The position numbers were made by a program, and so were the translations under genes. A stretch of 39,258 bases of DNA, taken from contig JAHJJB010000177.1 of NCBI GenBank assembly GCA_018823005.1, positions 1 to 39,258 of the forward strand, read 5' to 3'. The stretch is from Pseudomonadota bacterium (GTDB lineage Bacteria > Desulfobacterota > Desulfobacteria > Desulfobacterales > RPRI01). The notes beneath the pieces are model-generated. The model was not told the origin of the DNA and made no database searches. It saw only the letters and a program-made list of their open reading frames with translations. The first letter of the stretch is position 1. Every line of letters starts with the position of its first letter. This document shows, piece after piece, positions 5,598 to 37,767 of the stretch.

Positions 5598-5864
5598 ATG
5601 ACAGAGCAGGAAATCATTACACTATCGAATCAGGTTTTTGAAGAATCGTTTGAAATAGAAAAAGAAAAATTAAAGCCGGAGATGAATATTTTTCTGGATC
5701 TCGGACTTGACAGTCTCGATATAGTTGACCTTGTGGTCGCCCTGCAGGAAAAGTTCGGCGTAAAAATAAGAAACGATGACAGGATCAAGAATATACGGAC
5801 GCTTGGGGACATATACAAATTTATCCTCTCATTGAAAGCAGAAGGGGCGTCATCTTCACTTTAG
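5598..5864 (+). CDS. acyl carrier protein
   Basis: 88 aa, LGLDSLDIVDL phosphopantetheine site. Confidence 0.95.
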   Translation: MTEQEIITLSNQVFEESFEIEKEKLKPEMNIFLDLGLDSLDIVDLVVALQEKFGVKIRNDDRIKNIRTLGDIYKFILSLKAEGASSSL

Positions 5865-5872
5865 CATCAGAA

Positions 5873-6634
5873 ATGAAAGAAACTTTGAAACTGATATGTT
5901 TTAACTTTATTTTTTATATTCTCTTTCTTCTTTTTTCAATTATCGGAATTCCGGTTTTTTCAGCAATTGTAGCTTTCCAGGCCATCTTTATCTCTCACCG
6001 GAATGGCATGAAAAAATTCCGCAGAGCCATTGCCTGGTACGGGCTGGGTGTTATCAAGGTTCTTCCATTCCCTTTCGTTCGTGTATTTTATAAAAATCTT
6101 GATACCACAGCCGAAAAAGGCCCTTTTATATTTGTCTGCAACCACAGATCTGCCTCCGACCCGTTTTTAATGGCCTGTCTTCCGTATGAGCTCGTGCAGA
6201 TTGTAAATATATGGCCTTTTAAACTCCCTGTTCTTGGTTTTATGGCAAGAGCTGCAGGATATTTGAGCGTAAGAGAATTGCCTTTTGAGGAATTCTCTAA
6301 AAAAACAACAGATCTACTACATGAAGGAGTTTCAATTGTCGCTTTTCCCGAAGGGACCCGCTCGGCAGACGGATCTCTGGGTCAGTTTCACAGCTCGATT
6401 TTCAGGGTGGCTTTGAGCTCGGGATACCCTATTTCACCCATATGTATTACCGGAAATGAAAATATCCCGGCAAGAGGAACTCTCCTGCTGAAGCCTGGAA
6501 CAATAAAAATACACAAACTTCCTCATTTAAAGTTCGAGGATTATAAAAACCTGACCCCTTTCAAATTAAAAAACAGTGTCCGTCAGATAATTGCTGAAGG
6601 GATCGAGGTCATGAAGGGAAAAAAGAGTCTGTGA
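5873..6634 (+). CDS. 1-acyl-glycerol-3-phosphate acyltransferase-like (PlsC family)
   Basis: VCNHRSASDPF (HX4D) and FPEGTRSADG. Confidence 0.93.
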   Translation: MKETLKLICFNFIFYILFLLFSIIGIPVFSAIVAFQAIFISHRNGMKKFRRAIAWYGLGVIKVLPFPFVRVFYKNLDTTAEKGPFIFVCNHRSASDPFLMACLPYELVQIVNIWPFKLPVLGFMARAAGYLSVRELPFEEFSKKTTDLLHEGVSIVAFPEGTRSADGSLGQFHSSIFRVALSSGYPISPICITGNENIPARGTLLLKPGTIKIHKLPHLKFEDYKNLTPFKLKNSVRQIIAEGIEVMKGKKSL

Positions 6635-7725
6635 TGCACTGCAGTGACATATTCGGTTCCGGACATACTAAAGATTCAATGAATGAGTCTGTACAAAAAA
6701 CCGTGCTCCTTGCTATTGAAATAAATTTTGACTCCTGCCGGGCCTTTGGATTCTCTACGATATTCATAAATGACGGCTATTTTTCTGATACAAGGCTTAC
6801 GGAGGAAGAGCTGCGCGATGTGATTACCCAGTCAAAGGCTCTCGGTGTCAGGGAAATCGTTTTTTCAGGAAAAGAGGTTTTATCTTATACCTCCATAAAC
6901 GAACTTATATCATTTGCCCGTAATCTTGATTTAGAAACTGCTTTGTTAAAAGATGGCTATTTATGCTTAGCCACTTCCGGAAAAAATGATCCGCCATTTT
7001 GTATGCGGCACAGATTTTCCTGTGTTGTTACCTCTTACGGTTATGTATTACCCTGCCCCGGCCTTGAAATACCTTTGGGAAACGTGCGCAGTCAGAAACT
7101 TGCCGATATAATTAAAGACAGTGAAATCCTTTCTGATTTAAAGGATCCAATAAATAAAATAAAAGGCCCGTGCCGCTATTGCGAAAATATCGGAATATGC
7201 TGCGGATGCAGGGGAAGAGCTTACCTTGCAACTGGTGATTACCTTGCATCTGATCTAATGTGCATCAAAAATAAATCCGGAGAGCATGATACTGTTTCGC
7301 TGCCCCTTCCGGTTGACGGGATAATACCGCAAAAGCCGCCTATGCGCATAATAGATACTCTCGACACATTGGCTGAACGGTCAGCCTCCTGTTCTGCATT
7401 GATAAAAAAGGATATGCCGTTTATTGAAGATGACGGATCAGTTGATAATGTTGCGTATCTTGAAATGATAGCCCAGTCTATTGCCGCATTAAATGGGTTC
7501 AGGAACATGAATGAATCAGGATCCTCTCCTGAAGGATATCTGCTGGGTGCAAAAAACCTCGTAATACTGGGCAGGGCAACAGAGGGAGACCGGCTTTCCA
7601 TCATGGTTTTCAAATATGCGCGCTACGGAGGTTTTGGAATTGTCAAAGGAATCGTGTCAAAAAACAACGAAGTCCTTGCAAGGGGAGAAATCAAGGTCTG
7701 GCATAAAACAGATGAATCAGATTAA
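6631..7725 (+). CDS. Degenerate radical-SAM remnant + SPASM domain fused to a FabA/FabZ-like hotdog domain
   Basis: N-terminal LLAIEINFDSCRAFGFSTIFINDG...LTEEELRDVITQSKALGVREIVFSGKEVL resembles a radical SAM start but lacks CxxxCxxC. SPASM-like CVVTSYGYVLPCPGLEIPLGN...GPCRYCENIGICCGCRGRAYLATGDYLASDLMC is followed by IPQKPPMRIIDTL...VAYLEMIAQSIAA...LLGAKNLVILGRA, typical of hotdog dehydratases. Confidence 0.75.
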   Translation: MMHCSDIFGSGHTKDSMNESVQKTVLLAIEINFDSCRAFGFSTIFINDGYFSDTRLTEEELRDVITQSKALGVREIVFSGKEVLSYTSINELISFARNLDLETALLKDGYLCLATSGKNDPPFCMRHRFSCVVTSYGYVLPCPGLEIPLGNVRSQKLADIIKDSEILSDLKDPINKIKGPCRYCENIGICCGCRGRAYLATGDYLASDLMCIKNKSGEHDTVSLPLPVDGIIPQKPPMRIIDTLDTLAERSASCSALIKKDMPFIEDDGSVDNVAYLEMIAQSIAALNGFRNMNESGSSPEGYLLGAKNLVILGRATEGDRLSIMVFKYARYGGFGIVKGIVSKNNEVLARGEIKVWHKTDESD

Positions 7726-7734
7726 GGAGAAACA

Positions 7735-8403
7735 ATGATAATCAGGATTCTTACTATTTTTCTGCTTCTTTTTTTCAATGCTGCTTACGGATATTCTCAG
7801 AATTCACAGGCCCCTGAAAAGATCCGAACGGAATTGACCGATGTTTTGAGCAGGCTTGAAAAAAAGATGTCGGGAATAAAAACCTTGAAAACCGGTTTTG
7901 TTCAGGAGAAAGAGCTTGCTGTATTCAAACAGAAAGTTGTCCTGAAAGGAACCATCTACATAGAAAAACCGGCACGGCTTGCCTGGCATGTAAATGAACC
8001 TATGAAATATATCATGGTTATTTCACACGACATGATCAGCCAATGGGATGAGGATACAAATAAAGTTCAGAAAATATCCCTTTCCAAGAATCCTGCTTTT
8101 GAAGCCGTGATAGGCCAGATGCAGAAATGGTTTTCCGGCGCATACACTCCCCTTCTGAAAGAATATGAAATAACACTGTTAAAAGAAAATCCGGCGTCCC
8201 TGAAATTTACCCCGAGGGCAGCAACCTTTGCAGGCAATGTGATAAAAAGCGTGACAGTCGATTTCAGAAAAGATGAACAGTACATTAACAGGATATTCAT
8301 TGAAGAAAAGAGCGGTGACACAACAAAGCTTTCTTTTGTCGATACTCAACTGAACATTCCTCTTGAAGATTCAGTCTGGAAGGTTAATCCCGGTGTCAAA
8401 TAA
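7735..8403 (+). CDS. LolA-like outer-membrane lipoprotein carrier
   Basis: Signal peptide, then LSRLEKKMSGIKTLKTGFVQEKELAVFKQKVVLKGTIYIEKPARLAWHVNEP, typical of LolA. Confidence 0.88.
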   Translation: MIIRILTIFLLLFFNAAYGYSQNSQAPEKIRTELTDVLSRLEKKMSGIKTLKTGFVQEKELAVFKQKVVLKGTIYIEKPARLAWHVNEPMKYIMVISHDMISQWDEDTNKVQKISLSKNPAFEAVIGQMQKWFSGAYTPLLKEYEITLLKENPASLKFTPRAATFAGNVIKSVTVDFRKDEQYINRIFIEEKSGDTTKLSFVDTQLNIPLEDSVWKVNPGVK

Positions 8404-10789
8404 TTCTTCCTTAATTCAGGCGAAAGCAAATGTTCGGACAAAAGTGCTTATCTCTATAGCCTTTCTTATTGTTATTGCTGCTTCTGTAACAGGTATTTTC
8501 CTTATCTCTTTCGACAATGATATAGAGCTGATGCTTCCGGACAATAATGAAATCCGCAGGAGCATGCGTTTTTTGCGCGAATCAAGTTTTTCAGATAAAA
8601 TTATAATATCTCTGGGGCTTAACGATTCCGCACGTACAGAAACCGATCTCATAAGAGAAGTGGACCGGCTTGCACAATCTCTGAAGCCCCCCTTTATAAG
8701 TGATGTAATGAGCAGCGTTTCGGAAAGTGAAACGGCCAATGAAATGTTTGCTTTTCTCCAATATACTCCACATCTTATCGATGAAAAAACTCTGGAAAAA
8801 ATCGATTCACAGTTAAACGACGACGGAATAAAATCGATCCTTCAGAAAAATTACAGACAGCTCCTTTCCCCTTCAAGCATGTTTATAACACCTATATTAA
8901 GAAGCGATCCTCTTGGCATAAAAACAGGTCTGCTTTCAGCATTGCAAAAACTTTCTTCTTCAACAGGTTATGAAGTCACCATAAAGAATGGCCACTTTAT
9001 AAGTAAGGACGGGAAACACGCTCTTTTGATCCTTAAAACCCCCGTATCCGTTACAGACGGTTTCGGTTCAAGGAATTTGATATCTTATCTGAATAAAGAA
9101 ATAGGTGCCCTGCCACCATATCTTTCCGCAGATATAATAGCAGGCCATCTCCATACTGTCAGCAATGAAAATGTTATAAAAAGAGACATTAAGATAGTGT
9201 CGATAATTGCCGCCATTGCCTTTTTCTTCATATTTTTCTTTTTTTTCAGGGATATCAAAGCAGTATATATTTTTCTTATACCTCTTGCGTCAGTTGCCGT
9301 TTCAATGAATCTTTCATATTTTATTATAGGCAATCTTTCATATTTTATTATAGGCATGGGCGCAGTTATCGCCGGAATTTCAATTGATTACGGGATACAT
9401 ATCTATATTGCGGTACGCACGGGTTCAAACCGGAAAGAGGCTGTAAAAAATGTTACAAGGCCGATTGTAACAGGAGCCTTGACAACCATAAGCGTTTTTG
9501 CCGCATTTTTTTTCTCGGATGTTCGGGGATTCCATCAGCTTGCTGTATTTTCGATCTTAAGCATTGTTTTTTGTCTTTCATGCTCTTTGTACATACTGCC
9601 GGTTTTCATAGAAGGCAAAACAGCACGTACTTTTCCCGCTCTTTTTGATAATATCTCAACTGTGCCCGAACTTATAACGGACAAAGCAAGGGTTTCCTGC
9701 TGGGTTATATTGCTGATTATTTTACTATTCTTATCTTCCAAAACAGCATTTAACAGCGATATAAAGCAATTTGACGGAAGCGAGCCATATATATTCAAGG
9801 CAGAAGATAATTTTCAGAGTGTTTGGGGGGAAAAAGATAATCCTGCGATACTTGTTGTACAGGAAGAGAGCCTTGAAAAAGCATTATTAACCAATGAACG
9901 CATATATCGGGATCTGGCAAACAAATTCGGAAATGAAGATATTTCTAATTTTGCAGCAATATGGCCTTCAAATCAAACAAGAACGGAAAACTCGGCAAGA
10001 TGGATCAGCTTCTGGAAAGAAAGGGCGGGGAAACTTAAAAGTCTGCTCGCAAAACACGGCCCGTCATACAATTTTTCAGACGGCGCCTTTTCACCATTTT
10101 TTGAGAATCTTTATGGTGAAGTGAATGCATCCGGATTGTCTGAAGATAACCTCTTTCTCAGAAGATTAAAGGAGCGCTTCGTGCTTGAAAGCGGGGTTGG
10201 ATTTCAGATATTAACCTATTTCCCTGATCAAGATCGGTATATTACAGCTTTTACGGAGTTTTGCCGGAATTATCCCGGATCATTTATAGTATCAAGGAAG
10301 AGTCTTTCAAAAGCCCTTTCTGATTCAATATCTTCTGAAATAATTTATCTTTCGGCAATTGCAGCCCTCTTTATCCCTTTTCTTACTCTTATATTACTAA
10401 AGGACTTGCGGTTAACCATTCTTGCCCTTATTCCGGTTTTTACAGGTATTGCTGCATCGTTAGGCATACTTCCCGTACTGGGTTTAACCTTGAATGCCCC
10501 TACTATAATTGCTATTATGGTAGTAACAGGCCTGTGCATCGACTATGGAATATTTATGGCTTATACCTGCCGCTACCATTTTAAAACCGGTACCGGAATA
10601 TCCGTATTCCTGTCCGCGCTTACAACCCTGATAGGAGCTGGAGTTCTTCTTTTCGCCAGACATCCTGTACTCTTTTCTATAGGAACAACACTCTTTTCAG
10701 GCGTGCTTGCAGGATATATGGCATCAATTGCCGCCGTTCCATCAATGTACAGGCTGTGGTTTAAAAATAAAGGGAATATCTTAACTTGA
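8393..10789 (+). CDS. MMPL/RND-family exporter
   Basis: Two TM bundles with GISIDYGIHI and GLCIDYGIFM motifs. GTG at 8393 overlaps the LolA gene; ORF track start 8363 also possible. Confidence 0.9.
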   Translation: MSNNSSLIQAKANVRTKVLISIAFLIVIAASVTGIFLISFDNDIELMLPDNNEIRRSMRFLRESSFSDKIIISLGLNDSARTETDLIREVDRLAQSLKPPFISDVMSSVSESETANEMFAFLQYTPHLIDEKTLEKIDSQLNDDGIKSILQKNYRQLLSPSSMFITPILRSDPLGIKTGLLSALQKLSSSTGYEVTIKNGHFISKDGKHALLILKTPVSVTDGFGSRNLISYLNKEIGALPPYLSADIIAGHLHTVSNENVIKRDIKIVSIIAAIAFFFIFFFFFRDIKAVYIFLIPLASVAVSMNLSYFIIGNLSYFIIGMGAVIAGISIDYGIHIYIAVRTGSNRKEAVKNVTRPIVTGALTTISVFAAFFFSDVRGFHQLAVFSILSIVFCLSCSLYILPVFIEGKTARTFPALFDNISTVPELITDKARVSCWVILLIILLFLSSKTAFNSDIKQFDGSEPYIFKAEDNFQSVWGEKDNPAILVVQEESLEKALLTNERIYRDLANKFGNEDISNFAAIWPSNQTRTENSARWISFWKERAGKLKSLLAKHGPSYNFSDGAFSPFFENLYGEVNASGLSEDNLFLRRLKERFVLESGVGFQILTYFPDQDRYITAFTEFCRNYPGSFIVSRKSLSKALSDSISSEIIYLSAIAALFIPFLTLILLKDLRLTILALIPVFTGIAASLGILPVLGLTLNAPTIIAIMVVTGLCIDYGIFMAYTCRYHFKTGTGISVFLSALTTLIGAGVLLFARHPVLFSIGTTLFSGVLAGYMASIAAVPSMYRLWFKNKGNILT
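9308..9355 (+). repeat. Perfect 24-bp tandem duplication inside the MMPL gene
   Basis: AATCTTTCATATTTTATTATAGGC at 9308-9331 and 9332-9355; encodes NLSYFIIG twice. Confidence 0.97.
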
Positions 10790-11451
10790 AACATCTGATA
10801 ATCACTGGAATAATAATGTTATGTCTGGCCGGATGCAGCACAATTCCGTTTCAGGCAGCTCCCGGTATGTTAATGGAAAATGCCGAGTCCGGCACGGTAA
10901 AAGAGAATTTTTCGCTCTTGCTTCCGGACAGGTTTCAAATCATAAGTACTATTGCTTTTGAATATAAGGGACAATCCGTGTCCTTTATAGGGTATTCCGA
11001 TATAGATACCAAGGGGAAAACATTTATCGTGGCAGGTATACACCAATCAGGTATGAAAATATTTGAAATAACTGGTGATAGCGATAAAACCGAATTAAGG
11101 TTTGCAATCGAAGACTTTACAAAAAAAGGAAATTTTGCTGAAGCTGTCGGCGGAGATATCAGAAAGATATATTTTGACCGGTTGCCATCTGACAGTTCAA
11201 AAGCATATAAGAAAAAACACGAAATTGTTTTTGTTCAGGAAGAACCTAAGGCAATCATGGAATTTGTTTTTGCCGGGCCCGGCAATCTTCTCGTTGAAAA
11301 GCGCTGCATTGTGGATAACCAGGCCATATGGAGAGTAAATTATTATGAATACCGCATAGAAAACGGGAAATTGCATCCGGCAGGAATCATTCTTGAAAAT
11401 ATAAAATATGGCTATAAATTGACAATGAGGTTAAAAGAAATCCGGTCATGA
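10786..11451 (+). CDS. Small lipoprotein, probably DUF3261-like as in APE clusters
   Basis: Lipobox LAGC at the N-terminus; ~220 aa; position directly after the MMPL gene. TTG start. Confidence 0.65.
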   Translation: MKHLIITGIIMLCLAGCSTIPFQAAPGMLMENAESGTVKENFSLLLPDRFQIISTIAFEYKGQSVSFIGYSDIDTKGKTFIVAGIHQSGMKIFEITGDSDKTELRFAIEDFTKKGNFAEAVGGDIRKIYFDRLPSDSSKAYKKKHEIVFVQEEPKAIMEFVFAGPGNLLVEKRCIVDNQAIWRVNYYEYRIENGKLHPAGIILENIKYGYKLTMRLKEIRS

Positions 11452-11825
11452 ATATCCTTATGCAGGAAATAAAGAATTCTATATCCAATCTTGAGGAAAG
11501 CGGGGATAAAATAAAAGCCAGGTTTCTTTTTCCGCCTGATTTTACCGGATTTAAAGGCCATTTTCCCGGCAGACCTGTTTTGCCGGGCGTGTGTAAGATT
11601 CAGGCGGTAATAGCAATGCTTGAAATATGGCATCAAAAAAATATTTGTATAAAAGAGATTTCAATGGCAAAATTTTTTGCTCCTGTATTTGACAATCAGG
11701 AAATTGTTGTTACAACTAGTAAAATGACCGGATTTCATGAAACATCCGGCGGAATAAAGATAAAAGCATCCGTGACAAGTAACGGAAAAAAGATTTCTGA
11801 CCTTCAGTTGTTATTGAGAGCATAA
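11448..11825 (+). CDS. FabZ-like 3-hydroxyacyl-ACP dehydratase (hotdog)
   Basis: GFKGHFPGRPVLPGVCKIQAV motif; ATGA overlap with the previous CDS. Confidence 0.88.
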   Translation: MNILMQEIKNSISNLEESGDKIKARFLFPPDFTGFKGHFPGRPVLPGVCKIQAVIAMLEIWHQKNICIKEISMAKFFAPVFDNQEIVVTTSKMTGFHETSGGIKIKASVTSNGKKISDLQLLLRA

Positions 11826-13814: not shown

Positions 13815-13934
13815 TGAAGAAGACTTCGCATGTCCGGATTTTTTACGTAAAGAAACAAAGACTTGAATCCTCGAATCCTGGAATCCCGGAACCCTTTCTC
13901 CCGGCTAATTGGGGGAAGAATCGAATATAAATAT

Positions 13935-14597
13935 ATGATCGTAATTACAGGCATAGGGTGGCTCACCCGGCAAGAATACGGCTGTTTAATAAGCAAACTC
14001 AATAAACCTCATGAAGGTTTTGGCAGTCTTTATTCTTACTTTAAGCATAAATCCTATTTTTCCTGTCCTGTAAAAAACTTCAGCAGGTTTGACGCAATAT
14101 CCAAAATGACATGCTTTAGTGCGGCTCTTGCACTAAAAGATGCAGGCATCTCTTATTCAGTGAAGCATAAACAGGATATCGGCATTTATGGCGCAAACAA
14201 AGCAGGGTGCCTTGATTCAAATCTGAATTACTTTCAGGACTACATAAGCAGCGGCAGAATTCTTGCGAGGGGCAACCTGTTCATCTACACACTTCCGTCC
14301 ATACCACTGGCTGAAGCTTCAATTCACTTTGGATTGAGCGGCCCCCTGCTTCATATGTCTTTTCATGAGAAAAGGATACCTTGCCTTCTCAGTTTTGCCG
14401 GAGACAGCATCACGGGAGGCGAAACCCCATCAATCCTTGCGATAAGCGCAGAAGAAAATGATGCGATCTGCTTTGTTTTAAAACAGGAAGCTGATATTTC
14501 GCCCGGGAAAAATGTTGGCCTTCAAAAGGTAATTTCCGCAACAGGGAACACATATACTTTTGATGAAATGATAAATGCTATTAACGGTATTGTGTAA
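13935..14597 (+). CDS. Half-length KS N-terminal-like protein, catalytic residues absent
   Basis: MIVITGIGWLTRQEYG...FSRFDAISKMTCFSAALALKDAGI...FGLSGPLLHMSFHEK; no active-site Cys and no C-terminal His domain. ATG 13935 preferred over 13863. Confidence 0.75.
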   Translation: MIVITGIGWLTRQEYGCLISKLNKPHEGFGSLYSYFKHKSYFSCPVKNFSRFDAISKMTCFSAALALKDAGISYSVKHKQDIGIYGANKAGCLDSNLNYFQDYISSGRILARGNLFIYTLPSIPLAEASIHFGLSGPLLHMSFHEKRIPCLLSFAGDSITGGETPSILAISAEENDAICFVLKQEADISPGKNVGLQKVISATGNTYTFDEMINAINGIV

Positions 14598-14635: not shown

Positions 14636-15910
14636 GTGAAAATAAAACTTGTTTACCCCAGATGGCCCAAATTAAAAAACCAGCCCGAATTTAATCTTCC
14701 TCCTCACGGGCCTGTCGTTTTTGCAGCCGCTGTAAGCGATAATACTGAAATATCATTCTGTGACGAAAATGTTGAGCAGCTTGATTTCGGCGAAGAGGCC
14801 GATTTAATAGCCATCTCTGTCATGCTGACATGCCAGATGCCCCGTGCCTGGGAAATAGCGGACGAATACAGGGCTCGCGGCAAAAAAGTGATATTTGGCG
14901 GAATTGCGACAATGCTCCATGCCGAAGAGACAACCATGCACGCCGATTCGGTCTTTATCGGCGAGGCTGAAGGACGTTTTGATGTAGTTATAAATGATTT
15001 AAACAACGGTAATCTGAAAAAAATCTATGATTTCCACCTTGATTTTCCGGAGACATCTCTTATAGGAACAGCGCGCAGGAGCATATTAAACCGGGATCTG
15101 TATAATTTTCGCGGAGTCCAGATGGTCGATCTTATTCACGCGTCCCGCGGCTGCAGGTTTAACTGTTTTCCGTGCTGCACACCATATCTCGGGGGAAGAA
15201 ATTTCAGGCCGCGCCCCATAGATGCTGTTGTCCGCGAAATAGAAAGTATTGAGAACAACCGCCTGTTCTTTGTCGATAATTCTCTGGCACAGAATGACGA
15301 GTGGGAAAAAGCCCTGTTTAAGGCCATTGCCCCTTTGAAAAGGAAATGGATATCCCATCCCATAAAGGACGATGATGAAATACTCGATCTGGCGGCTGAA
15401 GCGGGCTGCTGGTACGTTTACCAGGCAATTGTTGACACATCAGACCATATCCGCAAAAGGGTCAAACGGCTCAAAGACCGCGGCATAGGTGTTGAAGGAA
15501 CCATAATACTTGGAACCGATGACCACGACGAGGATTATATAAAAAGGCTTGTAGATTTCCTTCTGGAAATCGACCTTGATCTTGCAGAATTTACGATACT
15601 TACACCGTTCCCGCACACTCCCATAAGAAGCCAGCTGGAAAAAGAGAACAGAATTCTGCATAATGACTGGACCCGTTATACGGCAGGTGAGGTGGTCTTT
15701 AAACCTGCAAAGATGAGCGTTGATTCACTTCAGAAAATGTATGAGTATGCATGGGAAGCCTTCTATGCCAGCCTGTGCAAGGAAATTCAGATGGCCAGGC
15801 TGTACATAAAGGTAATTGAAAAGGAAAAACATGACGGCACATATAAAAAAGGAACTCCCGCCTCAGGCCGCACCAGAAAGTTATCAAAAAGCGGGGTTAT
15901 AACTCAATGA
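14636..15910 (+). CDS. B12-binding-type radical SAM protein
   Basis: N-terminal cobalamin-binding-like fold (VIFGGIATMLHAEETTMHADSVFIGEAEG) and CRFNCFPC cluster motif; GTG start after AGAGGA. Confidence 0.92.
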   Translation: MKIKLVYPRWPKLKNQPEFNLPPHGPVVFAAAVSDNTEISFCDENVEQLDFGEEADLIAISVMLTCQMPRAWEIADEYRARGKKVIFGGIATMLHAEETTMHADSVFIGEAEGRFDVVINDLNNGNLKKIYDFHLDFPETSLIGTARRSILNRDLYNFRGVQMVDLIHASRGCRFNCFPCCTPYLGGRNFRPRPIDAVVREIESIENNRLFFVDNSLAQNDEWEKALFKAIAPLKRKWISHPIKDDDEILDLAAEAGCWYVYQAIVDTSDHIRKRVKRLKDRGIGVEGTIILGTDDHDEDYIKRLVDFLLEIDLDLAEFTILTPFPHTPIRSQLEKENRILHNDWTRYTAGEVVFKPAKMSVDSLQKMYEYAWEAFYASLCKEIQMARLYIKVIEKEKHDGTYKKGTPASGRTRKLSKSGVITQ

Positions 15911-25267: not shown

Positions 25268-26701
25268 ATGAAGATATTGCTTGTAAAACCACACCCTGAA
25301 CTACTGGTGGCAAAGCGGTTGCAGGAAGGCTTCCTTCATCTTGAGCCTCTTGAGCTTGAAATAGTTGCAGGGGGTGTGCCTGATGAAGATGATGTTTTAA
25401 TTATTGATCTCAGCGTTTAACACGAGCCAATCTCGGCTTTCAGAAATACTTTAGCGGAATATTCTCCTGATATGGCCGGTTTTTCGGCGTACAGCACGAA
25501 TGTCGATGCTGTAAAAAATCTCGCAAAGATGGTTAAGGATTTCAACCCCGGTATAGTTACTGTCGTTGGAGGAGTTCATGCTACACTTCTCCCCAAAGAT
25601 TATGCGGTTGAACAGATAGATATCATTGTCCGTGGTGAAGGAGGAACCGTGATGCGGGAACTTGTACGCAGGTTCAAAAACGGTGACTCTCTGCATTATG
25701 AAGACCGCGCTCTTTCCCCGCAAGACCCCCTGTTTAACGGAAAAGCCGAGCTTGCGCCGCCGGTATATCCGTCAGCAGGCGGAATACCTCGTCCCAGAAG
25801 GGATCTTGTGGACAGGTCGAGATACTTTTGCGTCTGGACTTCAAGCCCGACAGGAAGGCTTGACACAATGTTCCCGAGAGTCGCAAGCATGCGCACTTCA
25901 ATCGGGTGCGCTTTTTCCTGTTCTTTCTGTGTTATACCGCATCTTATGCACGGAAGATACCTGCAGAGAAGCCCGAAAGATGTTGTTGATGAGATAGAAA
26001 ACATTCGTGAAGAGCATATTTATTTTGTAGATGATGAGATGTTTCTGAACCCGGAAAGAGTTACCAGGATTGCAGAGCTTCTTATCGAGCGCGGAATTAA
26101 AAAGAAATACATAAGCTGGGCGAGAAGCGACACCATAGTTAAATATCCCGAAGTCTTTACAATATGGAAAAAAGCCGGCCTCGATCTGGTCTATGTTGGC
26201 CTTGAGTCCATGGATAAATCACGCCTCGATGAATACTCGAAGAGGACAAGCGTTGAAACAAATAGAAAAGCCGTGGACCTTTTACGGGAACGGGGAATAA
26301 CCCTTCATGCCGCCTTCATTGTTCATCCTGACTTTACTGTCGAGGATTTCAGGAGACTTGAAAAAGAGGTTTATAATGTACGCCCGGCAGAAGTGACGTT
26401 TACGGTTCTCTCCCCCTCTCCCGGAACAAAATTCTGGCATGACAACAAGCACAGATTTATATGTGATCCCTACCGCTTTTATGACTGCATGCACTCCGTG
26501 CTTCCAACCCGCCTTCCTTTAAAACGCTTTTACCAGCATTTCGGAAGATTAAACAGCCTTGCATTGCGCGCAAACCCCCTTCGGGTCAATAAAGTTAAAG
26601 TTCCTTTTAAGGATCTGGTAAGGGCAATATCCGGAGGAACAAAATATATTTTCTCACTCTACACCATATACAAGGATTACTTGCCGGAGAAAAGCAGGTG
26701 A
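25268..26701 (+). pseudogene. B12-binding-type radical SAM protein interrupted by in-frame TAA (25418-25420)
   Basis: ATG 25268 gives MKILLVKPHPELLVAKRLQEGFLHLEPLELEIVAGGVPDEDDVLIIDLSV*HEPISAFRNTLAEYSPDMAGFSAYSTNV..., in frame with ORF 25472..26701; CAFSCSFC motif present downstream. Confidence 0.8.
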
Positions 26702-28424: not shown

Positions 28425-29282
28425 ATGTTCTTCTACTATATCTACCCCGGTCTGTGGGAGACCTTCTTCAGCGGACTGGGAATGGAACCGATTATTTCCA
28501 GGCCGTCCACCATCAAGACGGTTGAGAAAGCCTCTCAAATATCCGAAACAGAACACTGTCTGCCGAATAAACTGTTTGATGCTCACCTTGCCGAACTTGT
28601 CGGGAAGGTGGACATGGTTTTTGTGCCCCGTGTCCTGTCCACCATAAAGAACCATCTCTCCTGTCCAAAGTTTGGTCCGCTTCCCGACGCGGCAAGGGCG
28701 GATATCGCCAGGGAAACGAAAGTCCTGTCTATTGAAATTGACGAAAGCAGGCGACCCTTATCCGAGAGCCTGATGCTTCTTGGAAAACAGTTAAAGAGTC
28801 AAAAGAGTCAAATCAGGTCCGCCATTAACAGCTCATTGAGAGCCATGGATTCGGCAAAGAATCAGCGTGTTCGATCCCAGAAGAAAAAAGGGGGGCTGCA
28901 TTTCCTGCTTATTGGACACCCCTATGTCATTTATGACAACTTTATCGCTGGACCGATTCTACAGAAGCTGGAAAAGATGGGCTGTGAAGTCGAACTGATC
29001 TCTTTTGCGGAGGACGCTCCGGCAAAGAGTTATATCCTGTGGAGCACAGCCAATCTGATTTATCACACGATGAAGACCCTCTCCCGTGAAGAGTATGATG
29101 GGGTGATTCAGATTACGGTATTTAATTGCGGATGTGATTCAATGATGATTGATACATATCGAAGTCTGATGAAAGAAAAGAACATCCCTTTCATGTATCT
29201 CATGGTCGATGAGCATTTGGCCCAGTCCGGGATGGATACACGGGTGGAGGCGTTTGTTGACTCGCTCGGGTGGCGTCCATGA
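28425..29282 (+). CDS. Acyl-CoA dehydratase activase-related protein (DUF2229-like)
   Basis: (GIPR)MFFYYIYPGLWETFFSGLGMEPIISRPSTIKTVEKASQISETEHCLPNKLFDAHLAELVGKVDMVFVPRVLS; the frame is open upstream of the ATG. Confidence 0.75.
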   Translation: MFFYYIYPGLWETFFSGLGMEPIISRPSTIKTVEKASQISETEHCLPNKLFDAHLAELVGKVDMVFVPRVLSTIKNHLSCPKFGPLPDAARADIARETKVLSIEIDESRRPLSESLMLLGKQLKSQKSQIRSAINSSLRAMDSAKNQRVRSQKKKGGLHFLLIGHPYVIYDNFIAGPILQKLEKMGCEVELISFAEDAPAKSYILWSTANLIYHTMKTLSREEYDGVIQITVFNCGCDSMMIDTYRSLMKEKNIPFMYLMVDEHLAQSGMDTRVEAFVDSLGWRP

Positions 29283-30382
29283 CGTATATGGCTATCCCTA
29301 ACATCGGCAACTACACCATCGCCCTCGCCACAGCGGTCGAATCTCTCGGGATTAAGGCCTGGGCTTCAACCGCCACGACGCCTGAAGCCCTGAAGTTAGG
29401 CATCGAGGCGGCCCCGGAGTCTGTCTGTCTGCCTCTCAAGGCCCATCTGGGCCACTTCATTGAAGCGGACAAGGCCGGTGTAGAATATGCTTTCATGATC
29501 AACAGTGTCGGGACATGCAGACTTCGATACTATCGCCACATGATAGACCAGATCCTCAAGGATCTGGGACTGAAAATAAAGATCTTCGGTCTGGGCTTTG
29601 ATGGATTCAAACCGCCAATCGTACGCCATTTTAATCCCGGACCGATCACGTTTATCAAACCCTTATTCCATTCGGTCTTGAAGATCAAAGTGATTGATGA
29701 ATTGGAGGTGGCCGCCTGGCGAACAAGACCCATCGAAATAACTCCCGGAGAGACCACGCGGATCATGAACAAGTTGCTGGTGGAACTCAGTGAGTCAAAA
29801 ACCATGGCTCAGACCCGGTCCCTCCGAAAAAAGGTTGCCGGGAGTTTCGCAGACATTCCAGTGGATAAAGAGAAACAACCGCTCAAGGTGGGGCTGGTCG
29901 GCGAAATATCTTTTTTGCGCGACAAGTGTTTGAATAAGAACATTGAATATATATTGGGTAGCCAGGGGATTGAGCTGAAAAACTTCTTTCTGCTTGGAGA
30001 AGAGTTAGAGAACATAACGCGAATCATATTCCTCAATCAGAGCCGGAGAAAGTCCCTGTCCCGAATCGCGGACAGATATTTGCAGAATTCGGTTGGGGGC
30101 CATGCCCTCGATTCCGTTGCGAACTCGATCCATTGTGCGGATGAGGGGTATGATGGCATGATTCATCTGTGTCCCTCCGGATGCATGCCTGAAGTCAGCG
30201 TACGACCGATCCTGAAGCGTGTCAGTAAGGACATGGACATTCCCATACTGGAAATGTCTTATGACGAACATACCTGTGCCGTCGGGATTTCGACCCGTCT
30301 GGAAGCCTTTGCCGATGTCCTCATGGAAAGAAGAAAAAACGGCTCCGTCGCCTTTCGCAGGGAGAAGGCCCGCCGTGGGTAA
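29279..30382 (+). CDS. 2-hydroxyacyl-CoA dehydratase (HgdB-like)/CoA-activase-related protein
   Basis: PESVCLPLKAHLGHF...HLCPSGCMPEVSVRPILKRVSKDMDIPILEMSYDEHTCAVGISTRLEAFADVL; ATGA overlap with the preceding CDS. Confidence 0.72.
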   Translation: MTYMAIPNIGNYTIALATAVESLGIKAWASTATTPEALKLGIEAAPESVCLPLKAHLGHFIEADKAGVEYAFMINSVGTCRLRYYRHMIDQILKDLGLKIKIFGLGFDGFKPPIVRHFNPGPITFIKPLFHSVLKIKVIDELEVAAWRTRPIEITPGETTRIMNKLLVELSESKTMAQTRSLRKKVAGSFADIPVDKEKQPLKVGLVGEISFLRDKCLNKNIEYILGSQGIELKNFFLLGEELENITRIIFLNQSRRKSLSRIADRYLQNSVGGHALDSVANSIHCADEGYDGMIHLCPSGCMPEVSVRPILKRVSKDMDIPILEMSYDEHTCAVGISTRLEAFADVLMERRKNGSVAFRREKARRG

Positions 30383-30386
30383 TCCA

Positions 30387-31490
30387 ATGAAAAACTCCTG
30401 TTACATGGGAATTGATGTCGGCTCCATCAGTACAAATTGTGTTGTCATTACACCAGAGGGTGGAGTCCTTTCTGAAATTTACAGGCGGGGGGATGGCCAT
30501 CCGATCGAGTCGGTGCAGAAGTGTCTGTCCCAACTCACGGCACAGTTGTCTGACGAGTATTGCGTCAAGGGTGTTTGCACAACAGGAAGCGGAAGAGTTC
30601 TTGCCGGCGCGGTCGTCGGCACAGATGTGATTAAAAACGAAATATCGGCCCATGCCCGTGCGACGATACATCTCTATCCTGACGTGCGCACGATATTCGA
30701 AATCGGCGGACAGGACAGTAAGGTCACGATTGTCAGGGATGGAGTTGTTGTCGATTTCTCAATGAACCTGCTTTGTGCTGCGGGCACAGGAAGCTTTCTC
30801 GATTCGCAGGCCAGACGATTGAATATTACGATTGAAGAATTGAGCACCAGGGCGATGACATCGGAAGATCCCACGGACATAGCTGGTCGTTGTACGGTCT
30901 TTGCGGAGTCGGACATGATTCACAAACAGCAGGGCGGGCATGAACAGAAAGACATCATGATGGGACTGTGTCATGCACTTGTCCGAAACTATCTTTCAAA
31001 TGTGTGCAATGGAAAGGAGATCAAACCGCCTATTGTTCTTCAGGGCGGTGTGAGCGCAAACAAGGGAATATGTCGGGCTTTCAAAGAAGCGCTGCAGTGC
31101 GATATCGTGGTTCCACCTTACAATATGGTCATGGGGGCTTATGGGGCCGCCCTGATTGCGTCAAAATCCGGCATCGAAAAGACAAAATATCGGGGAAAAG
31201 AAGCTTCCACGCACATCATTATTACAAAGGGTTTCGAATGCGGGGATTGCCCCAATTGTTGTGAAATTATCGAGGTCCTCGATGCGGATGAAGTCATCGG
31301 AAGAACCGGCGGGCGGTGCGGTAAATGGGAGGGAAGGACGGAACCGCGGGAAGCCCTCAAGGGAACAGGCCCGATTGGTACTGTTTTCGGAACTTCCGCA
31401 GGCGGTCTAACGGAATATGATACCTGCCGACTGCTGGACAATGTCCCTGACCTTATTCAAATAGGCGTTTCCAAAAAGAGAAGGTCGTAA
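30387..31490 (+). CDS. BadF/BadG/BcrA/HgdC-family ATPase, 2-hydroxyacyl-CoA dehydratase activator
   Basis: CYMGIDVGSISTNCVVI, GVCTTGSGR, IFEIGGQDSK, CAAGTGSFLDSQARRLNI motifs; ATG 30387. Confidence 0.92.
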   Translation: MKNSCYMGIDVGSISTNCVVITPEGGVLSEIYRRGDGHPIESVQKCLSQLTAQLSDEYCVKGVCTTGSGRVLAGAVVGTDVIKNEISAHARATIHLYPDVRTIFEIGGQDSKVTIVRDGVVVDFSMNLLCAAGTGSFLDSQARRLNITIEELSTRAMTSEDPTDIAGRCTVFAESDMIHKQQGGHEQKDIMMGLCHALVRNYLSNVCNGKEIKPPIVLQGGVSANKGICRAFKEALQCDIVVPPYNMVMGAYGAALIASKSGIEKTKYRGKEASTHIIITKGFECGDCPNCCEIIEVLDADEVIGRTGGRCGKWEGRTEPREALKGTGPIGTVFGTSAGGLTEYDTCRLLDNVPDLIQIGVSKKRRS

Positions 31491-34692: not shown

Positions 34693-37600
34693 TCAGACAA
34701 ACCGTTTCATTTCTTCCAGATATTCCGGATAACGGGACAAGTAAAAGGAAAGCGCACGAGCAAAATCGGGCCCGAGGACACCGTTTATGAACATCTGGCT
34801 TATCTCCTTTTGCCGCAGAAGAGTAGACTGGGAGGTAACCCAGATATGGCGCTCTTCCTCTGATATAGAATTCATGAGTTGATTGATAGCGCTTCGGGCA
34901 CGCGGCTGATACATCCAGAAATAAAGTGCGTCAAGTGCGTGAATACAGATAATTTTTTCCATATCCTGAGCTTCAGCATTGGCTTTTTCCCTGAATTTCT
35001 GGGGATGCCCGAGCAGTTCAAGAGTATTGGTCTCCGGAAACAGAAGCTCTATTTGTGCATATATATCCATCAGGTCCGACAGCTTTTTCCGGTACTCCCT
35101 GAACCGCATCCGTACATTAGCATAACGGTCAGCAGTACCTTCTATGATTCCGGCCATAATGTCCGAGGCTGTCTTGGAAATAATCGCGGCCCACTTCTGA
35201 AGCACGCTGGTTGCAGCCTCTACCCCGTAAGCAGTCATTATCGATCCGGCACTATAATTAAGCAACACGGCAATTGGAATGGACAGAATGGTGCGAAAAA
35301 AGTTGCCGAAAATTGCACTTTTCGGCAACCCGCGGAACGCATTGTGACTCGAGAGATATATCCCATTGGCTAGCGCCATAACCGAAAATAATAGAACCGG
35401 TTGAGTGGCAGTTGTAATATCAAACATCCGGTCCAGGATGACCGTTTTTACAAGATAATCGAGCAACGGAACCGAAAATCCTGTATAAAGCAACGAATCG
35501 GCGGTTCGGTCCCAGTTAACAAAGGCATTCCATCTGAGCAGGGGAGATCGGCGAAAGCCGCCGCCGCCCAGAACCGACTGGAGAACATTGCGGATCCCCG
35601 TGATACCGAACCAGATAAAAGCGCCGAAATAAGCCAGCAGCCACCAGTCCTTGGTAAGAACAAATGTGGTAAATGCCGGAATGAACCCGATAATAACCTT
35701 TAACAGGTTTTTCAAGTGGGAATTAACATAAGTCCAGGGAATGCCCTTCTTTTCGTCTCTGGAAACAGGAGGCTCCAGATACAGATCGTTGGTAATGACC
35801 TTCTCTGTTCCGCCAAGTGTTATGACATTTCCTTTTTGAGTCATGCGGGCGGCATTACCCAGCACTTCCCAATCCTCTTTTTGTGTATAACCCATCCATC
35901 GGATAAAGGGCAGAGTCTCGGCTATATCCAGAAAAGCCTTTCGCACATTATCGCGGGCCATGAATGTGTGCCGTTTACGGACGTGAAGATATATGGGAAT
36001 AATGTCCCTGCCGGTGCCAATATCCTTTCTGATCTGTTTGCGCGCTCTTCGGGGCAGGGTATCAATAACCGCGAGACCCATGCCGTGAGATCGCCTGGAT
36101 CGTCCGGTAGAGTCACTTCCAAGGCGTGCTTTGAGCGGCCTGCTCTTGTACATGATCTGAAGATTGATTATATCGTGGAGTATGGCCGTCAGTTTTTCGA
36201 TCTGTTCTTTTTTTTCAGGAAGATCCCTGGCCGCCACTTTCTGAATGATCTCAAGAATCAATCGCTTCAGCGCTATCGGGCTCTGTTCGTTGATGGCTTC
36301 CTGAAGCTGGCTGATGGCTTGAATATGGTCGGTTATGCCGGCAGCCCAATCCTTGAGGTTAAAGAGTTCCAGCCTTGAGATCCTGCCGTCGCAGTCGTAA
36401 ATCAACTCCAGCACTTCTTCTACTTCAACATTGGACAGGTTAAGCGTAATCCTGTATCCTGACTGCAGGGCAGCCAGACGGTCGAGAAGCTCTGCCGGAG
36501 AGAGCTTCAGTAATTCCGGAACACCGGGATCATCGACGGGTTCTGAAGGATTTGGAATATCGGGGTTGCTTGAAGGTCTGAGGTAGCCGGCAACCAGAGC
36601 TTCCAGATCGAGGCGATTCATTTCTTCGAACCACTTTTCAATCCGGTCCCGTTCGTCAGTGCCGGCAGTGCAATAGGTTGTTCGCAGTTGTTCAGCCTTT
36701 TTCTGCAGTGCATGCAGAATCTTCTGATGAATAAATTTCCCCAGATGCAGCGTCGACTTCTGACCGATGCCGACAAAAGCGAGGAACTCCGTTTCATCCA
36801 TAGGTTTCAGATCGACGTCGTATTCACTCCTCAAGTCTGACAAATGCCTGTGATTGAAGGCTCTGAAAAGTTCCATCACGTAAGCCTGCTGGTAAGCAGA
36901 AACCTTCCTCCCTTCATTCATGAGCCTCACAACCGCCGGCTCCTCAAGAAAGCAGAGAAATGCCTGGGAGTCAGGGAATCCCCTTGGAACCCAGATAAGA
37001 TTTATGTACTTGTTTCGAAACCGGGATGAAAACTCAATTCCGATCCGTACGTCGATATCCATTATCCGGGCAGCTTCAAGAAGTTCGGTCGCAAAACGCG
37101 GTTCGATATAATTGTAGTGGACAACCCTCAAACGTCTGATACCCTTTATCCAGGCATCCATTATAAGGTGTGTGGAAGACTTGCGCCCCTTTGTGTTAGC
37201 GTCATGCACGTGATCGTCAAATGAAACCTGATTCCATTCTTCCGGCATTTCAAGAAGATGATATCGTTTGAGCTGCTTTCGGACAACCCGGGGTTTGCCC
37301 GAGACGGTAATACGGAAATCGTGAGCCAGTTCGAGTTGTTGTCTGTAATTGTCCCTGGTTCGAACGACTTCCTTCATGATTTGCATCAAAATCCGGGCGG
37401 TGTTTTTCGGCATCGGCCCTTCGGCTGTATCAAGAACTTCATCGCGCAAAGAGCGGAGCGCTACAAGACGGTCATCCATTCCTCCGATCTCGAGAGAGGT
37501 CAGCAGATGAACCATTGCATATGCAATCCGCAACCTTTTAGTTTCGGCCATTTCTTTAATGCCATTAGGATGGAAATAGCCTGAATATTGCCTCCGCGTA

Positions 37601-37767
37601 TATTCAAAATCCTGGCCTCTGGAGAAGGCATCGTTGACAATCCGAATCAGCCTGTAATCTCCACGGTCGAAAAGAATGCGGCTGTGCCGAGAAGATGGCT
37701 TAGGTCCGCATATTTTCTCGATTTCTTCTATACGCGATTTATTTATAACGCTCCCGGTTTTACTCAT
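34693..37767 (-). CDS. 1024-aa uncharacterised protein with PHP-like region and C-terminal membrane segments
   Basis: VSFDDHVHDANTKGRKSSTHLIMDAWIKGIRRLRVVHYNYIEPRFATELLEAARIMDIDVRIGIEFS looks like a derived PHP domain; hydrophobic stretches LLKVIIGFIPAFTTFVL and PVLLFSVMALANGIYL. Confidence 0.65.
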   Translation of the reverse strand: MSKTGSVINKSRIEEIEKICGPKPSSRHSRILFDRGDYRLIRIVNDAFSRGQDFEYTRRQYSGYFHPNGIKEMAETKRLRIAYAMVHLLTSLEIGGMDDRLVALRSLRDEVLDTAEGPMPKNTARILMQIMKEVVRTRDNYRQQLELAHDFRITVSGKPRVVRKQLKRYHLLEMPEEWNQVSFDDHVHDANTKGRKSSTHLIMDAWIKGIRRLRVVHYNYIEPRFATELLEAARIMDIDVRIGIEFSSRFRNKYINLIWVPRGFPDSQAFLCFLEEPAVVRLMNEGRKVSAYQQAYVMELFRAFNHRHLSDLRSEYDVDLKPMDETEFLAFVGIGQKSTLHLGKFIHQKILHALQKKAEQLRTTYCTAGTDERDRIEKWFEEMNRLDLEALVAGYLRPSSNPDIPNPSEPVDDPGVPELLKLSPAELLDRLAALQSGYRITLNLSNVEVEEVLELIYDCDGRISRLELFNLKDWAAGITDHIQAISQLQEAINEQSPIALKRLILEIIQKVAARDLPEKKEQIEKLTAILHDIINLQIMYKSRPLKARLGSDSTGRSRRSHGMGLAVIDTLPRRARKQIRKDIGTGRDIIPIYLHVRKRHTFMARDNVRKAFLDIAETLPFIRWMGYTQKEDWEVLGNAARMTQKGNVITLGGTEKVITNDLYLEPPVSRDEKKGIPWTYVNSHLKNLLKVIIGFIPAFTTFVLTKDWWLLAYFGAFIWFGITGIRNVLQSVLGGGGFRRSPLLRWNAFVNWDRTADSLLYTGFSVPLLDYLVKTVILDRMFDITTATQPVLLFSVMALANGIYLSSHNAFRGLPKSAIFGNFFRTILSIPIAVLLNYSAGSIMTAYGVEAATSVLQKWAAIISKTASDIMAGIIEGTADRYANVRMRFREYRKKLSDLMDIYAQIELLFPETNTLELLGHPQKFREKANAEAQDMEKIICIHALDALYFWMYQPRARSAINQLMNSISEEERHIWVTSQSTLLRQKEISQMFINGVLGPDFARALSFYLSRYPEYLEEMKRFV

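Follow-up and report, generated by a model that had tools for sequence, protein, structure and literature searches.

A half-barrel radical SAM remnant with a retained SPASM domain and an ApeP-like hotdog domain in a Desulfobacterales lipid gene cluster

Introduction

The auxiliary clusters of SPASM domains have almost always been studied within radical SAM enzymes that are active, which makes it difficult to tell what the clusters themselves contribute. In AhbD, the SPASM ligands have been assigned to AuxI and AuxII (PMC10452713). The aryl polyene dehydratase ApeI/ApeP has been described as a heterodimer with one active site (PMC8041823). Equally, the parts of ladderane-type clusters, an acyl-CoA ligase included, have been noted in Desulfotalea and Kuenenia (PMC2649909). 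Here, a protein is analysed that combines half of a radical SAM barrel, a SPASM domain and an ApeP-like hotdog domain; it is encoded in a stretch of 39,258 nucleotides from a Desulfobacterota bacterium (GCA_018823005.1, contig JAHJJB010000177.1), hereafter the window. In the reading that we prefer, and to which we give an even chance, the protein would be the ApeP half of a heterodimeric dehydratase of the ApeI:P type, to which a SPASM domain is attached as an Fe-S scaffold without radical function; the lipid cluster around it would be a hybrid of the ladderane and aryl-polyene types.

Domain layout and the erased SAM site

The open reading frame extends over 6631-7725 on the plus strand, on which all features named below are located unless indicated. 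Its conserved start is the ATG at 6634, and the gene (6634-7725) encodes a product of 363 aa. This ATG overlaps the TGA stop of the acyltransferase gene in front of it, which leaves no room for further barrel sequence 5' of the reading frame; an assembly error or a frameshifted barrel is excluded by this overlap and by independent genomes, which concur. The N-terminal Cys3 (6640-6642), located outside all known motifs, is invariant across 15 aligned sequences, short and complete fusions taken together.

The barrel remnant, β1-α1-β2-α2-β3 (residues 27-105; 6712-6948), is recognized in the AF2 model, with pLDDT mostly 70-90, and in the alignment with complete relatives. Of the six strands of a radical SAM barrel only β1-β3 are present and β4-β6 are gone, in agreement with the original prediction of a barrel far short of full length. 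In comparison with the complete relatives, approximately 125 residues before the SPASM domain, from α3 through α6, have been deleted, so that α3-β6-α6 is absent at the junction (6949-6999). A complete relative was modelled by AF2 with all six barrel strands, with SkfB, PqqE and anSME as Foldseek neighbours. The loss of CxxxCxxC and the change of GGEP into GKEV, equally predicted, are borne out by the alignment: CNFRCPYC of the complete relatives reads RAFGFSTI in the window protein (6739-6762), with none of the three motif cysteines left, and GGEP reads GKEV (6868-6879). The lone Cys35 precedes the position of the first motif cysteine by one residue and is hence none of the three. Pfam Radical_SAM (PF04055) scores 13.1 bits, below its gathering cut-off of 29.5. 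By motif, by six-strand partial barrel and by Pfam score, the window protein falls outside the radical SAM superfamily, and SAM radical chemistry by this protein can, with high probability, be dismissed.

That the half barrel still takes part in radical SAM catalysis, with a second protein supplying the missing portion, is very improbable. The half-barrel proteins L100-L102 from outside the genus, in which CxxxCxxC is retained, would fit this explanation, but the genus lacks any cysteine of the radical SAM cluster, none of the 12 half-barrel forms has GGEP and the strands β4-β6 are missing.

Relatives and repeated loss of the barrel

The short form is encoded in seven of ten genus genomes examined, the window's included, and the other six copies are stop-free and 60-93% identical to it. 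Complete fusions of approximately 490-505 residues, with CxxxCxxC, GGEP, SPASM and hotdog all intact, were found in other families of the same order of Desulfobacterota and, in a survey beyond this phylum that consisted of one pattern scan, in Nitrospirota, Verrucomicrobiota and PVC genomes. A hotdog-free version of the same enzyme is widespread across the phylum. In addition to the genus copies, the half barrel was identified in five proteins (L099-L103), and two other proteins (L010, L104) are of full length but decayed. The reduced set thus comprises 14 proteins, 12 half-barrel forms (seven from the genus and L099-L103) and two decayed ones, to be compared with 15 complete fusions. The fusion of the hotdog domain preceded the loss of the barrel.

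In a tree calculated on the shared SPASM-hotdog columns, the genus is separate from the half-barrel proteins L099-L102. Forcing these two groups together is rejected (AU p 0.011), as is uniting all twelve half-barrel forms (AU p 0.021), so that a single origin of the half-barrel forms is rejected (AU p 0.011-0.021) and the cut arose at least two times. For L103 alone, a grouping with the genus is compatible with the data (p 0.095), and L103 may or may not represent a third event. The ends of the deletion match within approximately 10 residues between the half-barrel forms, and L100-L102, with half a barrel yet with CxxxCxxC retained, possibly represent an intermediate state.

The original prediction had named full-barrel homologues as a potential sign of a recent deletion. 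Such homologues with intact CxxxCxxC do exist; a recent deletion is nevertheless excluded, because fixation of the short form extends, within the genus, to copies of approximately 60% identity, and because this form evolved at least twice and shows a low SPASM dN/dS in most pairs.

The SPASM domain and its cysteines

The SPASM domain (7000-7272) is detected by Pfam (PF13186) at residues 124-184 with E 1e-7 and 32.5 bits, above the cut-off of 21.5. As predicted, its cysteines are retained: positions 123, (130), 141, 180, 183, 189, 192 and 210 are all occupied, and their spacing, CX17C ... CX2CX5CX2CX17C, is identical to that of AhbD. The seven core cysteines are preserved in 12 of the 12 half-barrel proteins. 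In the decayed proteins L010 and L104, exactly 123, 141 and 192 are lost and exactly 180, 183, 189 and 210 remain, sets that correspond to AuxI and AuxII, respectively, by the ligand assignment of PMC10452713. From its cysteine pattern, the SPASM domain is predicted to bind Fe-S clusters; no cluster geometry is claimed, because this region of the AF2 model of the window protein is of low confidence.

Complete fusions, half-barrel forms with CxxxCxxC, half-barrel forms without it and decayed forms with only AuxII ligands represent a natural series, in which SAM site, AuxI and AuxII have been separated by evolution and can be tested one protein at a time.

Within the genus, the short form is under purifying selection. 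The dN/dS of the SPASM domain is 0.07-0.17 in most pairs, with 0.36 in the closest pair, in which changes are few; the same range of 0.07-0.17 is found for the hotdog domain, and 0.27-0.96 for the barrel remnant, with 0.96 in the closest pair. The proposal that SAM chemistry was lost and the SPASM domain kept is supported. One could imagine SPASM domain and half barrel as slowly decaying passengers of a needed hotdog domain, a relic of the kind that the dN/dS of the barrel remnant, which reaches 0.96 in the closest pair, and the further decay of two relatives might suggest. We regard this as unlikely; the constraint on the SPASM domain equals that on the hotdog domain in most pairs, and the core cysteines are all retained in at least two independent lineages.

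The hotdog domain and its proposed partner

A FabA/FabZ-like hotdog domain had been predicted, and the hotdog fold is real (7297-7707), with matches to FabZ and to ApeP (6qsr_B, E 4.7e-9); the domain is, however, ApeP-like instead of a standard FabA/FabZ and without the catalytic His. The best fold match of the modelled domain is the YcsD-FabZ heterodimer (PDB 9a6k, E 2.2e-9). By sequence, it matches ApeP (PF22817) with E 1.9e-8, with 13.5 and 16.1 bits staying below the gathering cut-off of 27. Where FabZ carries its catalytic His, the window protein has Ser, so that the FabZ-type pair of His and Glu is not found in one chain. The position of Glu277 is occupied by Glu in 29 of 29 hotdog domains, and His occurs at the FabZ position in none of the 29.

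An ApeI-like hotdog protein with the His of a GHFPG motif and with Gln at the acid position is encoded further downstream (11448-11825; PF22818, 29.7 bits, cut-off 28.5) and is the proposed partner. An ApeI-like protein was found in 16 clusters, and in all 16 it has the His and lacks the acid. As the Glu of the window hotdog and the His of the ApeI-like protein are complementary, and as the ApeI/ApeP heterodimer provides a precedent, the window protein is best read as an ApeP half, and its hotdog domain is probably functional only when paired with the ApeI-like protein in a heterodimer.

According to the scaffold model, the ancestor was a SPASM radical SAM enzyme of full length that had a PaaK-like ligase as its partner and was fused to an ApeP-type dehydratase subunit. 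In the genus, the ligase gene is absent, half of the barrel has been lost and nothing of the SAM site is left. The remaining protein would be the ApeP half of a 3-hydroxyacyl-ACP dehydratase that works as a heterodimer, with the SPASM domain as an Fe-S scaffold; the ApeI-like protein may give the catalytic His and the window protein the Glu of one composite active site. SPASM cluster or clusters, with the half barrel as a cap, may keep the subunit in shape and may aid docking of the acyl carrier protein or of other enzymes of the cluster. Against this model count the decayed forms, which retain the hotdog domain despite the loss of AuxI, the stretches searched around two complete fusions, L034 and L040, in which an ApeI-like gene was not found, and the association with the ligase (see below), which represents only two or three independent events.

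Gene cluster, ligase and B12 radical SAM enzymes

Upstream of the gene are located an acyl carrier protein gene (5598-5864) and the PlsC-type acyltransferase gene (5873-6634), and downstream LolA, MMPL and DUF3261 genes (7735-11451), an export block of the aryl-polyene type, all assigned by Pfam. This aryl-polyene-type block comprises LolA, MMPL, DUF3261, ApeI-like, thioesterase and ketosynthase genes. The ladderane-type set consists of CrtI-like genes, ketosynthases and B12-binding radical SAM enzymes; among the latter are the enzyme encoded at 14636-15910 and a lipid biosynthesis enzyme of TIGR04072 (15907-17280; 628 bits, cut-off 360). In G588 and G631, the syntenic clusters lack the aryl-polyene-type block and encode a SPASM enzyme without hotdog domain, from which we infer that the fusion lies at the seam of the ladderane-type and aryl-polyene-type blocks. 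At L144:8836-9717, a gene for a PagL-type lipid A deacylase occupies the place of the window's aryl-polyene-type block.

Further genes in and around the cluster were observed. A short ketosynthase-like protein without Pfam match and with a weak FabF match (13863-14597) has a gene order beside the radical SAM gene that is conserved in many clusters. Genes of the 2-hydroxyglutaryl-CoA dehydratase-like type (DUF2229/HGD-D) and a BadF/BcrA-type ATPase activator are present within the lipid cluster at 28425-31490; G006 has HgdB-like homologs at the corresponding place, and G005, G007 and G009 have none there. An ORF6N-domain (phage-type regulator) gene (826-1428) is located upstream of the cluster, and the minus strand encodes a 1024-aa protein without Pfam match (34693-37767).

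As the main rival to the scaffold model, the two auxiliary clusters might form an electron relay that serves an enzyme encoded nearby, be it a CrtI-like oxidoreductase, an FAD oxidoreductase or one of the B12 radical SAM enzymes; hotdog domain and acyl carrier protein would then be the docking platform. All 12 half-barrel forms have kept both cluster sites, the gene cluster also encodes three radical SAM enzymes and several FAD enzymes, and the auxiliary clusters of other SPASM enzymes have been proposed to transfer electrons (PMC10452713). On the other hand, a fused or demonstrated partner is lacking and decayed relatives without AuxI still have the cluster genes, and we consider such a relay a possibility of rather low probability.

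In the complete fusions, a PaaK-like ligase gene, missing in the window, sits between the acyltransferase and the radical SAM gene. The ligase is part of the locus in 15 of 15 complete fusions, directly upstream except in L039 (approximately 6 kb off), and is found directly upstream of hotdog-free relatives of the same phylum, too (among L134-L142). It is absent from that place in the clusters of all 14 half-barrel and decayed proteins, and no match was obtained in any genus genome examined at the threshold used. The ligase probably acts together with the SPASM radical enzyme in one pathway. Equally, a close ortholog of a third B12-binding radical SAM enzyme of the window (25472-26701) is carried by 13 of the 14 reduced-form genomes with 58-93% identity, the window's own copy excluded, the sole genome without it being G189, which is 81% complete; the genomes with complete fusions contain no more than a paralog of 44-45% identity. 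No significance is claimed for the association of ligase and barrel, because it rests on one to three independent contrasts.

A broader proposal combines these observations: a radical SAM enzyme would repeatedly have become an Fe-S subunit, with a regulatory or electron-relay role, of a fatty-acid-type dehydratase by excision of the same half barrel, with the auxiliary clusters as the working part, coinciding with a change from a PaaK-linked route to the B12 radical SAM enzyme. We put it forward as speculative and rather unlikely in this full form.

A diverged PaaK-like ligase gene is accompanied by an aromatic amino acid lyase gene in G267 and G044 (L100:2716-5684, L058:4850-9667); the pair resembles an aryl-polyene starter route, and these lineages have reduced SPASM proteins. 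An aromatic ammonia-lyase starter route was considered for the window's genus as well and was not found in the genus genomes.

Comparison with known systems

SPASM-like proteins without SAM motifs are an already known kind. TIGR04347, TIGR04304 and TIGR04193 match the SPASM region of the window protein weakly and TIGR04150 its barrel remnant, and none reaches its cut-off (TIGR04347, pseudo-SAM/SPASM: 35.4 bits, equivalog cut-off 525). Some of these four families retain a SPASM domain without SAM motifs; to our knowledge, none of them has a half barrel or is fused to a fatty-acid dehydratase. In the literature searched, no report of half-barrel SPASM proteins or of pseudo-SPASM families was found, nor was the fusion to an ApeP-type hotdog domain, the repeated excision of a half barrel or the AuxI/AuxII split.

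The SPASM region most resembles AhbD and NirJ2-type proteins, with matches to TIGR04545 and TIGR04055 (E 1.7e-21 and 3.3e-22), far under the equivalog cut-offs of both. Compared to AhbD and NirJ2, the window protein lacks the radical SAM motif, has lost half of the barrel and has gained a hotdog domain. In the YcsD-FabZ heterodimer (9a6k), a hotdog protein is paired with a FabZ-type partner as proposed here, but the pathway differs from that of the window, and we know of no Fe-S domain in that heterodimer.

The cluster shares ApeI-like, LolA, MMPL and DUF3261 genes with the aryl polyene ApeI:P system; in contrast to ApeP (6qsr_B, PF22817), the window hotdog stays below the Pfam cut-off, is devoid of the catalytic His and has SPASM domain and half barrel in front. 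With the ladderane-type and Desulfotalea FASII clusters (PMC2649909) it has in common the TIGR04072 enzyme, CrtI-like genes, multiple ketosynthases and radical SAM genes, but differs from these by the aryl-polyene-type insert and by the reduction of the SPASM enzyme. The window protein links ladderane-type with aryl-polyene-type lipid clusters.
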